From Snuella sedimenti (GTDB lineage Bacteria > Bacteroidota > Bacteroidia > Flavobacteriales > Flavobacteriaceae): DNA of 64,000 bases. The DNA is taken from NCBI RefSeq assembly GCF_016428595.1, contig NZ_JAELVQ010000010.1, forward strand, positions 1 through 64,000, written 5' to 3'. The position numbers were made by a program, and so were the translations under genes. The notes under the pieces were generated by a model. It was not told where the DNA came from. It saw only the letters and a list, made by a program, of their open reading frames with translations, and searched no databases. Numbering within the stretch: position 1 is the stretch's first letter; every line of letters begins with the position of its first letter. This document shows positions 1 through 7,778 of the stretch, in pieces.

Positions 1-111
1 AAAAACGCTCTTGAAATTCGAATAAGGATAGGCTTTTGAATCTTTGCTCCATAAGTTTATGTATTTATCCCTTGAATTTACTCATATTATTAATATTTAC
101 AAAACGCCTAA
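1..111 (-). mobile_element. End of an IS1595-like insertion sequence (partial, cut by window edge)
   Basis: On the minus strand an ATG at 52-50 opens a frame that runs off the left edge and begins MEQRFKSLSLFEFQERF. This resembles the N-terminus of IS1595-family (ISXO2-like) transposases of Bacteroidota as I remember them. Between this start and position ~111 there is no coding sequence in either direction, and the cas9 frame is open only from 112. The simplest reading is that this is the transposase-start end of an insertion sequence sitting inside cas9. The inverted repeat, target duplication and the other end lie outside the window, so the exact boundary and the family remain inferred from 17 residues and the abrupt loss of the cas9 frame. 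Confidence 0.5.
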
Positions 112-1902
112 GTCGATAAAGTAATTTGTGAAGCTGAAGTAAATAGTTTAAAAGACAAACAGCTAGGATTGGAGTTTATTAAAAATCATTACGGACAAAA
201 AGTTTCCACAAGTTCGGGAGAAGTAGAAATTTTATCGGAAGAAGCATATACAAGTTTTGTAAAAGAGCAGTACGACAAAAACAGAGAAAAGAAAAACAAG
301 TTGTTGTTGCCAGATATTCCCGATAAAATGATTGAACGGCAATTGAACGATACGCGTTACATTAGCAAATTTGTGTCTAACCTGTTATCTAATATCGTTC
401 GGGCTGATAAAAGTGATGAAGGTGTAAACTCTAAAAACATCATTCCTGTTAATGGAAAAATAACAGGAAGATTAAAACAAGACTGGGGATTAAATGATGT
501 TTGGAACGATTTGATTTTACCTCGTTTTGAGCGAATGAATGAGCTGACAAAGAGTAATGATTTTACTTCCTGGAATGAAAAACATCAGAAGTATTTACCT
601 ACCGTTCCGTTAGAGCTTTCAAAAGGTTTTCAAAAGAAACGTATTGATCATCGCCACCATGCATTGGATGCTTTAGTTATTGCATGTGCCACGCGAGATC
701 ATGTTAATTTATTGAATAACAAACATGCAAAGTCAAAAAGCGAAAGGTATGATTTGCAATACAAGCTACGCCATACAAAAAAATGGCAAGAGAAAGATGG
801 TAAAGTAAGAAATAAGTTTATTGAATTTAAAAAGCCTTGGGATAATTTTACGGTTGATGCCAAAAATGAATTGGGAAAAATCGTTGTTAGTTTTAAGCAA
901 AACCTACGAGTGATTAACAAAGCAACCAATCATTACGAAAAAATCGTAAACGGTAAAAAGACAAAGGTTGAACAAAAAGGTATGAATTGGGCGATAAGGA
1001 AATCCATGCACGAGGAAACGGTATCTGGAATTATTAATTTGCCGTGGATAAAACTTGGCAAAGGAGAAATTATAACTGCCACACGAGAAAGAAATGATTT
1101 AGTGTCAATGTTTAAAGACGTAAAAACGAAAGATAAAGCTGAAAGCAAGATCAGTAAAATTACAGATACGGGTATTCAAAAAATTCTAATTAACTATCTT
1201 AAAAGTAAAGGCAACAATCCAGAATTGGCTTTTTCTCCTGAAGGAATTGAGGATATGAACAAAAACATTTCTCAATTTAATGATGGCAAATTTCATCACC
1301 CCTTTTTTAAAGTTCGTACGTACGAAAAAGGGAAAGGAAGATTTGTTTTAGGTACAAAAGGCAATAAAAAGAGTAAATATGTTCAAGGTGCTCCAAATTT
1401 ATTTTTTGTAGTGTACCAAAGAAAGGATATAAATGAACGTATCTTCGATACAGTTCCTTTGAATGAAGTTATTGAACATCAAAAGATACAGCACGAGCAT
1501 AAGATTGACAAAGAAGCAAGAACTCCTATAAGTTTAAAAAATACATTAGAATATAGAGGAACAGAAGTTGAGGTTGAGTTTTTATTTAGTCTATCACCTA
1601 ATGATTTGGTGTATGTTCCAAGTAATGATGAGGATATAGAGTCATTGAGTTTTGAAAATTTGACTACTGAACAGAAGAAAAACTTATATAATGTTAATGA
1701 TTTTTCTTCAACTTGTTATTTTACACCAAATAGGCTTGCAAAGGCTATAAGAGAGAAAGAAGTTGATATGAACTTTAATGGAAAGAAAAACAAAATTACT
1801 GGATCATTTGATACTAAAACTGCAAGTCTAAATGGTAAACAAATTAAAGAGGTTTGTATTAAACTTAAAGTTGATCGTTTAGGAAATATTTCTAAAGGTT
1901 AA
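112..1902 (+). pseudogene. cas9: cas9 C-terminal remnant (type II-C), 5' part missing
   Basis: The frame is open from 112 and starts without a plausible initiation codon (VDKVICEAEVNSLKDK). This is the stretch just after the HNH domain in Flavobacteriaceae type II-C Cas9. About 596 residues remain of a protein that is usually ~1400-1500 aa. The RuvC-III motif is present near remnant residues 177-190 (DHRHHALDALVIA), so the HHxxDA residues are kept, followed by the wedge and PAM-interacting region to a normal stop. RuvC-I, the bridge helix, the REC lobes and HNH are absent, and upstream sequence is stopped in all forward frames. The remnant cannot form a nuclease by itself. A TTG at 169 could start a 577-aa fragment but has no obvious ribosome-binding site. 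Break probably caused by the adjacent IS. Confidence 0.88.
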
Positions 1903-1940: not shown

Positions 1941-2558
1941 ATGGAAGGTAAAAAGGCTGTATTAGTGCCAGATAGCACCTATCATATTTATAATAGGGCA
2001 AATGGTCGTGAGCGGCTTTTTTATAATGAAGGTAATTATCGCTATTTTTTAAGGTTGTTCGAACAGCGTTTGGGGAGTTTGGTAGATGTTTATTGTTATT
2101 GTTTGATGCCTAACCATTTTCATTTTTTGTTAAGGGTGAAAGAGGCTAGGGACATTGAGGAGGCTATTTTTAGATTGAAGTTTAATTCTAGAACCCTCCA
2201 AGGGTTTCAAACCCTTGGGGGGTTGGAAAAAAGAGAGGTGGTATCCAAGTTTCTAACTCAGCAATTTTCACATTTATTTAATGCATATGCTCAGGCTCTT
2301 AACAAAGAACAAAGCAGAAAGGGCAGTTTGTTTATGCATCCCTTTAAGCGAAAGCTTGTAACGGACGAAAGTTATTTGCGAAAATTAATCCACTATATCC
2401 ATTTAAATCCTGTAGTGGCGGGTTTGGTGGACAATCCTGATTGTTGGAGATATTCCTCTTATGGGAACATTATTTTGCATAATTACGATAGGATGATGTT
2501 AGAAAAGGTTATAGGGCTGTTTGGTGACATGGAGAATTTTAAATATTGTCATAGCTAA
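1941..2558 (+). CDS. REP-associated tyrosine transposase (RAYT, Y1/IS200-like)
   Basis: A 205-aa single-domain Y1 transposase of the RAYT group, which are domesticated IS200/IS605 relatives that nick single-stranded DNA at REP hairpins. The N-terminus carries the family signature of the type 'tYHIYNRanGRERLF', and the HUH metal site is MPNHFHFLL, with H59 and H61. The likely nucleophilic tyrosine lies in the helix FSHLFNAYAQALNKEQ. The C-terminal part (HYIHLNPVVAGLV...WRYSSY) is also typical. It starts 38 bp after the cas9 remnant and ends 92 bp before cas1, so it interrupts the usual cas9-cas1 operon. Its own coding sequence holds a REP-like palindrome (2192-2224). No terminal repeats of a transposon are visible around it, as expected for RAYTs. 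Confidence 0.85.
   Translation: MEGKKAVLVPDSTYHIYNRANGRERLFYNEGNYRYFLRLFEQRLGSLVDVYCYCLMPNHFHFLLRVKEARDIEEAIFRLKFNSRTLQGFQTLGGLEKREVVSKFLTQQFSHLFNAYAQALNKEQSRKGSLFMHPFKRKLVTDESYLRKLIHYIHLNPVVAGLVDNPDCWRYSSYGNIILHNYDRMMLEKVIGLFGDMENFKYCHS
2192..2224. repeat. REP-like 33-bp palindrome inside the RAYT gene
   Basis: Two 16-bp arms (2192-2207 and 2209-2224) around a single C form an inverted repeat with one mismatch. The inner 21 bp is perfect, with the core GGGTTTcAAACCC. In frame it encodes a stretch like TLQGFQTLGGL between conserved blocks of the transposase, in a region of low constraint. A second palindrome with the same GTTTnAAAC core lies at 6213-6231. Confidence 0.75.
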
Positions 2559-2650: not shown

Positions 2651-3556
2651 ATGATAAAACGCACTCTTTTTTTTGGCAATCCTGCGTATTTAAGTACTCG
2701 GCATGAACAATTGGTGGTTAATTTCCCTGAGGAGGATAAAAAAGAGGCTACTATTCCGATTGAAGATTTGGGTTATGTGGTGTTGGAAGATCCACAGATA
2801 ACGATAACCAATGGATTATTGATGAAGTTGGTGCAAAATAAAACCGCAGTTATTACCTGCGATAAGCAACATTTGCCCTGTAGTTTTTTACAGCCATTGG
2901 TGGGGCATAGCGAGCAGACTGAACGCATGCGGTATCAATTAAATGCGAGTATGCCCTTAAAGAAGCAGTTGTGGCAGCAGACCGTAACCGCCAAAGTAGA
3001 GAACCAAGCTAACCATTTGCTAAAACAGGGAGGCAATGCTTTAAAATTAAAACGTTGGGCTAAAGGTGTAAAGAGTGGTGATCCAGGGAATATTGAAGCT
3101 ATTGCGGCAGCTTATTATTTTCAGAACCTGTTTGAAGGGCTGGAAGGTTTTAGTCGTAATCAAAAGGGTATACCTCCCAATAACTTACTTAACTACGGAT
3201 ATGCTATTTTAAGGGCTGTTGCAGCCCGGGCCTTGGTAAGTAGTGGGTTGTTGCCTTCGGTTGGTATTTTTCACAGTAATAAATACAATGCTTTTTGTTT
3301 GGCAGATGATGTTATGGAACCTTATCGCCCATTTGTTGATGCTGTTGTATGGGATATTATTGAAACGGGCTGTAATATTAATGAGCTGACACGGTCTATT
3401 AAAGCGGAATTATTAAGTATTCCTGCTATGGATGTGGTAATTGATGGAAAGCAGAGCCCTTTAATGGTGGCCATGAGCCGAACTACCAATAGTTTGTACG
3501 AGTGCTTTGCGGGGATAAGCAGAAAGGTGCTCTATCCAGATTTTGTATGGTGTTAA
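2651..3556 (+). CDS. cas1: CRISPR-associated endonuclease Cas1 (type II)
   Basis: Cas1 is the integrase of spacer acquisition and works as a Cas1-Cas2 complex. The 301-aa length fits type II Cas1. The N-terminal beta domain (MIKRTLFFGNPAYLSTRHEQLVV) and the all-alpha C-terminal domain are both present. The metal-binding residues are visible: E149 in NIEAIAAAYYF, H208 in GIFHSNKYNAF and the acidic DDVMEPYRP segment near residues 219-223. The frame is intact and shows no damage, unlike cas9. The ATG follows a TAGGTAAGG-type stretch. The next cas gene, cas2, is 264 bp away instead of overlapping or nearly touching, because a repeated leader-like sequence lies between them. Confidence 0.96.
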   Translation: MIKRTLFFGNPAYLSTRHEQLVVNFPEEDKKEATIPIEDLGYVVLEDPQITITNGLLMKLVQNKTAVITCDKQHLPCSFLQPLVGHSEQTERMRYQLNASMPLKKQLWQQTVTAKVENQANHLLKQGGNALKLKRWAKGVKSGDPGNIEAIAAAYYFQNLFEGLEGFSRNQKGIPPNNLLNYGYAILRAVAARALVSSGLLPSVGIFHSNKYNAFCLADDVMEPYRPFVDAVVWDIIETGCNINELTRSIKAELLSIPAMDVVIDGKQSPLMVAMSRTTNSLYECFAGISRKVLYPDFVWC

Positions 3557-4168
<612 letters not shown>

Positions 4169-4250: not shown

Positions 4251-4280
4251 AGGATACCAGGTTTTTATGGCTGGTATCCT
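4251..4280 (-). terminator. Rho-independent terminator at the cas2-proximal end of the array
   Basis: Perfect 10-bp arms AGGATACCAG (4251-4260) and CTGGTATCCT (4271-4280) enclose a 10-nt loop. Read on the minus strand the hairpin is followed at once by GTTTTTT. The distal arm overlaps the first three bases of CRISPR repeat 1. This is where a leftward array transcript would end, and it would also shield cas2 from antisense transcription. Confidence 0.72.
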
Positions 4281-5004
4281 GCGAATTGTCTACTAAAATA
4301 GTAATCTGAAAGCAATTCACAACTTTGTTGGGTATGGGGGGCATTAGGACTTCCTGCGAATTGTCTACTAAAATAGTAATCTGAAAGCAATTCACAACAC
4401 ATTGATTTCAGCGCCGTTAGCTACTTTCCTGCGAATTGTCTACTAAAATAGTAATCTGAAAGCAATTCACAACTCAAGATAATTTAACACTTGTCGGAGT
4501 TCCCCTGCGAATTGTCTACTAAAATAGTAATCTGAAAGCAATTCACAACAAATTTCAGCCCATACACAATTACGTTACCCCTGCGAATTGTCTACTAAAA
4601 TAGTAATCTGAAAGCAATTCACAACACATTGATTTCAGCGCCGTTAGCTACTTTCCTGCGAATTGTCTACTAAAATAGTAATCTGAAAGCAATTCACAAC
4701 TCAAGATAATTTAACACTTGTCGGAGTTCCCCTGCGAATTGTCTACTAAAATAGTAATCTGAAAGCAATTCACAACTTTCGCGCCAAAACACTGCTATAT
4801 CGCCTTCCTGCGAATTGTCTACTAAAATAGTAATCTGAAAGCAATTCACAACTGTGGTTCCCATATAATTTTAATTTAAGCTCCTGCGAATTGTCTACTA
4901 AAATAGTAATCTGAAAGCAATTCACAACAAGTTATCAGGTGAAGCCATCAGAGGGGGCCCTGCGAATTGTCTACTAAAATAGTAATCTGAAAGCAATTTA
5001 TCAG
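4278..5004 (-). CRISPR. Type II-C CRISPR array: 10 repeats, 9 spacers
   Basis: The 46-bp repeat (plus strand CCTGCGAATTGTC...GCAATTCACAAC) starts at 4278, 4353, 4428, 4504, 4580, 4655, 4731, 4807, 4883 and 4959. The nine spacers are 29 or 30 bp. Repeats 1-9 are identical by eye; repeat 10 has lost its last six bases (TATCAG in place of CACAAC). Spacer 5 equals spacer 2 and spacer 6 equals spacer 3, so a two-spacer block is duplicated and there are seven distinct spacers. The reverse complement begins GTTGTGAATTGCTTTC, the usual 5' end of Bacteroidota type II-C repeats, so crRNA is probably made from the minus strand. Each repeat contains the perfect inverted repeat TACTA-AAA-TAGTA. I found no anti-repeat (tracrRNA) in the window. 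Confidence 0.97.
4293..4322 (-). promoter_or_regulatory. Candidate crRNA promoter within each CRISPR repeat (first copy given)
   Basis: On the minus strand each intact repeat holds TTG (complement of CAA at 4320-4322 in repeat 1), 19 bp, then TATTTTAG (complement of 4293-4300). This differs at one base from the Bacteroidota consensus TTG-N19-21-TAnnTTTG. Transcription would start near the repeat-spacer junction, giving one short crRNA per unit, as known for Neisseria type II-C repeats. Repeat 10 lacks the TTG. Confidence 0.5.
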
Positions 5005-6341: not shown

Positions 6342-7778
6342 TTATTCTACGAGTATCTTGTATTCCCAAGGTTGTAAAGAGAGTGTATTATTTTTGTGAA
6401 AATAGATATTGTTATTGTCTATATAATCTATAAAGTTTCCTGAAACGGGAACACGACATGTTTGCACGGTATCTGAAAAGTTACCAATAAAGATTAGTGC
6501 TTTGTCCTCTTTGTAGCGCTTAAATGCTAGAACTTGGTCATTACCCGAATGGAGCCGTTTGTAACTGGCCTTGGCCTTGCTGCCGTGTAGTGCTTTGCTT
6601 GTAGCTTTTAAGGTGCCCAATTTTTCCAAAAGGAGCCACATGTTGCTTTTTGTTTTGGGAATGGTGTCTTTTTCGAAAAACTTTAAACGGTGGTTTAGGT
6701 TATATTCCTGGCCGGAATAAATAAGTGGCATTCCGGGCATGACATAGGTTAATGCCGTAGCAAGTTCTGAGGCATCGCCCAAACGTTCTTGTACAGTACC
6801 GGCCCAGGAATTTTCGTCGTGATTGGTTACAAAATTCATGAGAATGTCATCGCTTTCGTAGGTGGTGTCAATGTATTCCATAAGGGCATCAAAGTCTTTT
6901 AAGGTCTTTTTATTATGCACTATTTCCTTAATTAAATGGTGTGCTTTCCAACCATATTCCATATCAAATAAATTGGCCTTCATGAATTTAGGGTCGTCAT
7001 TTTCGGCAAGCATAAAGAGTGCTTTCTTTGCACTTAGTTCGGCAATGGCCTTTTTCCAGAAAGTAATGGGGGTAGGCTCTACATGGTCACATCTAAAACC
7101 GTCTACGTCTTCATTTTCTACCCAGTACACCATATCCTTTATCATTGCTTTTTGCATGTCCATGTTGGTATAGTCTAATTGGGCAACATCACCCCAGCCT
7201 TTTGAAGTGCCATCTGCATTTAGAGGATCGGTGATCTCACCTTTGGCATTTTTCATATAAAATTCGGGGTTTGTTTTTAGCCACACATGATCCCATCCGG
7301 TATGGTTGGGAACCCAGTCTAAAATAACGTACATGCCATTTTGGTGCGCTGTTTTTACTAATTCGCGAAAGTCTTGGATGGTGCCAAATTCAGGGTTGAT
7401 CTTTGTGTAATCTGAAACGGCGTAATAGCTTCCCAACATTTTTTTGCGTTCTGTTTCGTCTTCAATCAAACTGGCAAAATCGCCTCCAGTGGCTTTACGT
7501 TTGGTTTCCGAAATTGGGAAAACGGGCATAAGCCAAATAATTTTTACACCGAGTTGTTTTAATTGGGGAATGTCCTTGGTAAAGGCATTAAAAGAGCCTT
7601 CTTGTGAATATTGTCGAATGTTGGCCTCGTAAATAACTGCAGTTTCCAATACCGTGTCTGTTATAGGAGGAAGTGCTTTAACGTCCTGTTTAAAAACGCC
7701 AAGAGTAGTTTTTTTTGTTTCTAATTTACAAGAACAAACCAATAGTGTTAAGATTAAGAATGGGATTAGGTGTTTCAT
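6342..7778 (-). CDS. GH13 alpha-amylase family lipoprotein
   Basis: A 478-aa enzyme with a lipoprotein signal (LLVCSCK, Cys about residue 17) and a GH13 (beta/alpha)8 barrel. The catalytic residues are visible: nucleophile D231 in DGFRCDHV, acid/base E259 in LFMLAENDD and D321 in VTNHDENS; the earlier conserved region is DWVPNHTGWDH. A small beta C-terminal domain ends near WEYKIL. It hydrolyses alpha-1,4-glucans or oligosaccharides, probably in the periplasm or at the outer membrane. The 5' leader is the copy shared with cas2. It lies 376 bp downstream of the next GH13 gene, so it probably has its own promoter within that leader. Confidence 0.93.
   Translation of the reverse strand: MKHLIPFLILTLLVCSCKLETKKTTLGVFKQDVKALPPITDTVLETAVIYEANIRQYSQEGSFNAFTKDIPQLKQLGVKIIWLMPVFPISETKRKATGGDFASLIEDETERKKMLGSYYAVSDYTKINPEFGTIQDFRELVKTAHQNGMYVILDWVPNHTGWDHVWLKTNPEFYMKNAKGEITDPLNADGTSKGWGDVAQLDYTNMDMQKAMIKDMVYWVENEDVDGFRCDHVEPTPITFWKKAIAELSAKKALFMLAENDDPKFMKANLFDMEYGWKAHHLIKEIVHNKKTLKDFDALMEYIDTTYESDDILMNFVTNHDENSWAGTVQERLGDASELATALTYVMPGMPLIYSGQEYNLNHRLKFFEKDTIPKTKSNMWLLLEKLGTLKATSKALHGSKAKASYKRLHSGNDQVLAFKRYKEDKALIFIGNFSDTVQTCRVPVSGNFIDYIDNNNIYFHKNNTLSLQPWEYKILVE

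Follow-up and report, generated by a model that had tools for sequence, protein, structure and literature searches.

The question raised by this locus was why a cas9 gene followed by cas1, cas2 and a CRISPR array begins without its first half, and what became of the functions of the system. The window, which is the whole stretch of 64,000 nucleotides of Snuella sedimenti that was analysed, carried only the 3' part of cas9. The cas9 frame opened at position 112, after a TAA at 109-111, and its stop ended at 1902; the cas9 sequence itself occupied positions 125 to 1902 of the plus strand, with the frame undamaged. In the profile search this piece corresponded to positions 613-1070 of TIGR01865 and matched RuvC_III (PF18541, E=4e-63) and the C-terminal (PAM-interacting) region only, as had been read from the sequence alone, where the frame was described as open only from 112 and lacking RuvC-I, REC and HNH. 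The first base of the window was the end of contig C2, and the missing half of cas9 therefore had to be sought elsewhere in the genome, a draft assembly of 57 contigs. It is highly probable (about 0.93) that an IS1595-like element present in many copies jumped into the cas9 gene of a complete type II-C locus, duplicating 8 bp (TAAAGTAA), and that this inactivated the locus.

Positions 1-116 were the right end of the insertion sequence (IS), on the minus strand and with the terminus ...GCCTAAGTCGA. These bases were found again, identical, at six further places, all at or near contig ends, as is typical of a multi-copy IS at which an assembly breaks. For the left IS end, starting TTGACTTAGGC, seven occurrences were found, also at contig ends. 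The IS transposase started at a minus-strand ATG at position 52, with its first 17 codons inside the window, and ran on the strand opposite to the cas9 3' half. In the copy on contig C22 the frame extended to 90 aa and matched Zn_ribbon_IS1595 (PF12760, E=9e-8, above cut-off), which bore out the suggestion of the sequence-only reading that the frame at 52 is the N-terminus of an IS1595-type transposase.

The element shared with the IS1595 family the N-terminal zinc ribbon, termini that are inverted repeats (TTGACTTAGGC and GCCTAAGTCGA), A+T-rich target duplications of about 8 bp, and a C-terminal stretch at the left end (YRFNRS...NLLNRMVNTEPCFIKNISS) resembling the C-terminus of its closest complete relative. 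That relative (genome G013, locus L180) had a 297-aa transposase (NF033547 IS1595, E=6e-44; PF12762, E=5e-16), and the unit containing it, about 1 kb long, carried inverted repeats. The element differed from the family in that its middle, including the DDE (ISXO2-like) catalytic region, was absent from the assembly, as is expected for a collapsed repeat. The only IS1595 DDE match in the genome, on contig C1, was rejected as the source of this middle; it belonged to a different element, and the IS ends were not found at that locus. At C1:373590-374039 (L023, genome G000) an IS1595-type transposase different from that of the present IS was read as two frames split by a stop, and is probably decayed.

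A search of the genome for HNH_4 gave a single match, on contig C17, at whose end a cas9 5' half (L009:4310-7015, outside the window) ran into the IS left end. It held RuvC-I, the bridge helix, REC, RuvC-II and most of HNH, and reached up to 73% identity to homologues within the same order. Its frame of 901 aa, which begins MKRILGLDLGTNSIGWA and ends ...EHIIPQSRYFDDSFSNKVIDLGI*, corresponded to positions 2-615 of TIGR01865 in the profile search, and its final residues were encoded by the IS sequence starting TTGACTTAGGC. Neither of the two cas9 halves bore any further lesion.

The IS ends were paired by taking TTGACTTAGGC as the left terminus and GCCTAAGTCGA as the right terminus and comparing the flanking duplications. 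The seven left and seven right ends in the genome matched one-to-one through A+T-rich duplications of about 8 bp, and the cas9 pair, C17 with C2, shared TAAAGTAA, its first copy lying directly before the IS left end on C17 (L009 near 6991-6998) and its second copy at positions 117-124 of the window (no strand). The pairing at cas9 is more than chance, because all seven left and seven right ends paired likewise. When the flanks were joined in script to give the empty site, one frame of 1,488 aa resulted, whose sole stop was terminal. The IS cut HNH immediately behind its conserved SNK motif; in intact relatives the sequence SNKVICESAVN, or a near variant, continues uninterrupted over the insertion point. 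This Cas9 was present in 28 other genomes among 396 of the order, with no internal stop within the matched part, and the alignments of the 5' half to the order homologues nearly all reached exactly residue 897, the insertion point. The proposed join of C17, IS and C2 rests on the target duplication and on the continuity of the frame. Leftward extension, which the sequence-only reading had called for, thus yielded the cas9 5' half, the IS left end and the matching target duplication; the added upstream sequence did not complete cas9, since an IS end stood on both sides with the matching 8-bp duplication. With both halves, both IS ends and the duplication found, the disruption of cas9 by an IS1595-type element that this reading had proposed was supported.

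In two other sequences cas9 was broken close to this position of HNH, no more than about 12 codons away, by an in-frame stop after PQSR in L078 (near 6980) and by a frameshift at IIPPQSR in L102 (6965-6990). The HNH domain was considered as a breakage hot spot of cas9 and rejected; the 28 order-level homologues were without internal stop, L078 and L102 come from MAGs, and L071 represents a gap in the assembly.

The remainder of the locus was preserved, as had been claimed for cas1, cas2 and the array. An intact cas1 of the type II kind (2651-3556, plus strand; TIGR03639, E=1e-89) was followed by an intact cas2 (3821-4168, plus strand; TIGR01573 and PF09827) and by an array at 4279-4998, assigned to the minus strand from the tracrRNA anti-repeat, with 10 repeats of 46 bp, the last one degenerate, and 9 spacers of 29-30 nt. 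The leader and repeats look intact. The tracrRNA anti-repeat, a 19-nt exact match, was located upstream of cas9 on C17. The gene content was that of type II-C, with cas9, cas1 and cas2, without csn2 and cas4, and with only a Y1-transposase-like gene in between; the kind of Cas1 and an array with a matching tracrRNA anti-repeat were also those of type II-C. A one-chain Cas9 with RuvC and HNH was absent, as the IS splits HNH, which makes the locus a broken member of the type. A second cas9 had been proposed as something to look for, and neither a second cas9 nor a second cas1 was found in the 99.7% complete genome; a further system with an effector of the Cas3, Cas10, Cas12 or Cas13 families and no cas1 of its own may be present.

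The original locus would have consisted of tracrRNA, cas9, the Y1-transposase-like gene, cas1, cas2 and the array, and a multi-copy IS1595-like element would have transposed into cas9, duplicating the 8 bp TAAAGTAA. The 5' half would then encode a 901-aa protein with a few IS-encoded residues at its end, having RuvC-I, RuvC-II and a truncated HNH and lacking both RuvC-III and the region that interacts with the PAM. As the 3' half is closed by a stop in the IS end and has no obvious promoter, no working Cas9 would be made; acquisition by Cas1-Cas2 would probably be absent or strongly reduced. No Bacteroidetes-type promoter that could drive the 3' half was found above chance in the IS end, the matches in L001 being at chance level. 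As HNH is cut, RuvC-III and the PAM-interacting region are split off, and no second Cas9 or Cas1 was found, interference is almost certainly lost, judging from established Cas9 anatomy. As no other lesion was present in the cas9 halves and the IS ends were identical among copies, the inactivation looks recent. The sequence-only reading had also offered that the locus might be a fossil, a term to be used with reserve, the halves being free of further lesions. A minority of cells may carry an intact cas9.

Two explanations would leave Cas9 activity in the organism. The break coincided exactly with contig ends in a draft assembly of 57 contigs, and it could be an artefact in which cas9 is intact and IS sequence just happens to stand at two contig ends that do not belong together. 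This is very improbable: the two contigs bore opposite ends of one IS, the same flanking 8 bp and one reading frame, all other IS copies paired likewise, and an intact cas9 was assembled nowhere. It is even harder to credit that the two parts of Cas9 are both produced and come together again as an enzyme that still works in part, as a binder or a nickase for instance. Both halves are open and undamaged, and L078 and L102, which derive from MAGs, have natural cas9 breaks at nearly the same place, an in-frame stop and a frameshift respectively; however, it is HNH that is broken and not a linker, no start lies close to the 5' end of the 3' half, promoter-like sites in the IS end do not exceed chance, the 28 homologues from the order are all unsplit, and sequence errors may account for L078 and L102.

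A locus that only adapts, in which Cas1-Cas2 still add spacers without PAM selection and nothing cuts, is unlikely, if less so than an artefact or a reassembled enzyme. The cas1 and cas2 genes, leader and repeats are intact, and Cas1 and Cas2 are required for acquisition in Riemerella type II-C (PMC6008519). On the other hand, the array held only 7 distinct spacers among its 9, spacers 2-3 coming back as 5-6, and none could be dated after the insertion or assigned a PAM, as there was no viral match for the four scanned and no target in the own genome. Exact 22-23-nt matches in IMG/VR were absent for 4 of the 7 distinct spacers, those scanned. No self-targeting spacer was found in the own genome, the best match of the array elsewhere in it being the tracrRNA anti-repeat, and self-targeting was rejected for the same reason as a selective cause of cas9 loss. 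Phage matches of the array were rejected as spacer targets, as they fell mainly on the repeat. The duplicated spacer block looks like recombination rather than new acquisition, and no sign of acquisition after the IS insertion was present in the array. A role of Cas9 in recognising the acquisition motif has been described for type II-A, whereas for Flavobacterium type II-C its help is only called possible (PMC8092290). Inactivation by the IS would leave acquisition at best crippled, and probably absent or strongly reduced. The earlier statement that the locus could acquire spacers yet not cut was upheld for the loss of cutting but not for ongoing acquisition, and acquisition blind to the PAM, although possible, drew no support from these findings. 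Short unannotated type II-C-like repeat arrays, with spacers of about 30 nt and adjoining a DinD gene, were observed in the Riemerella phages CRP19 (L185:1490-1760) and RAP44 (L186:1495-1604).

Between cas9 and cas1, inside the cas operon, the window carried a Y1 or REP-associated tyrosine transposase-like gene (1941-2558, plus strand; PF01797, E=7e-7, above cut-off) with the HUH motif NHFH and the catalytic-tyrosine region YIHLNP; its match to NF047646 (E=1e-17) reached 64 bits, below the cut-off of 80. Related Y1 genes were inside the cas operon, all in the cas direction, in 15 of the 80 loci with mapped cas9 and cas1, a count that includes the window and one near-duplicate contig pair (L100/L101), and genomes G022 and G075 held two more beyond these. 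Besides the window, cas-operon Y1 genes were located at L052:1097-1738 and in L069, L072, L073, L078, L079, L100, L103, L109, L113, L119, L133, L134, L152 and L163; the gene of L052 had lost the first HUH histidine (NLFH) and that of L119 was broken, and in L133, from Algoriphagus oliviformis H41, the gene sat between cas9 and cas1. They stem from several transposase lineages. The Y1 tree needed six label changes, of which well-supported branches force three or more, so that the association with cas probably had more than one origin or suffered repeated loss.

A near-perfect palindrome lay between the HUH and tyrosine motifs in most of these genes (positions 2198-2218 in the window), differing in sequence among them and pairing perfectly. 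Such an internal hairpin, with arms of at least 15 nt, was present in 12 of the 15 cas-operon rows of the Y1 tree compared with at most 10 in codon-shuffled controls; the palindrome was found in the window, L052, L069, L072, L073, L078, L079, L100, L109, L113, L133, L134 and L152. No other copy of the window palindrome occurred in the genome at up to 2 mismatches, and it was thus not a dispersed REP. The hairpin was discarded as a new feature, since TnpA-REP subclass 2.4 has already been described with hairpins within the gene (PMC6006769). No published report of the Y1-cas association was found in a limited, partial literature search. It is unlikely that the Y1 gene, instead of being a passenger, belongs to Bacteroidota type II-C operons as an accessory part that recurs among them; if it did, the Y1 proteins, as single-strand DNA endonucleases, might have DNA ends or hairpins as substrates when spacers are captured. 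Against this stands the reading of the gap between cas9 and cas1 as a cargo site. In Bacteroidota type II-C loci this gap also held RhuM, DUF6155, YhcG-type PDDEXK nuclease, nucleotidyltransferase, AAA ATPase and pRiA4b-like genes (L054, L064, L066, L068, L070, L074, L080, L081, L096, L107, L111, L123 and L136), and the RhuM, DUF6155, YhcG-nuclease and nucleotidyltransferase genes favour a cargo site.

The locus shared with other Bacteroidota type II-C systems (Riemerella, Flavobacterium, Chryseobacterium) the order tracrRNA, cas9, cas1, cas2 and array, and its 46-bp repeats and 29-30-nt spacers were similar to the arrays of Riemerella and F. psychrophilum, with repeats of 47 and 46 bp (PMC6008519, PMC10309648). 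It differed from them in the IS-split cas9 and in the Y1-transposase-like gene between cas9 and cas1. In Flavobacterium psychrophilum CN46 the type II-C locus likewise carries IS insertions with target duplications, IS982 separating tracrRNA from cas9 and IS256 sitting in the array, and interference persists there (PMC10309648); here, in contrast, the IS1595-like element interrupts cas9 itself. In the degraded type II loci that are common in Mollicutes, cas9 is disrupted and other parts of the locus persist, and inactivation was judged in at least 8 of 21 type II systems (PMC6882279). The cases considered belong to II-A or to other II-C lineages and arose by frameshift or show only gene fragments, in some instances together with self-targeting spacers; they differ from the present IS insertion without a self-target. 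As II-C loci with IS insertions and loci with a degraded cas9 have already been described, there is little new in kind, and the locus is a well-proven new example of a known, ordinary route of CRISPR inactivation. A contig end at an IS can mask why a cas gene looks truncated, and pairing of the IS ends by their target duplications uncovers the cause. The locus provides a well-documented natural knock-out of cas9, with cas1, cas2, tracrRNA and the array left in place, and the strain, if culturable, would offer an immediate way to test whether Cas9 is needed for acquisition in type II-C.
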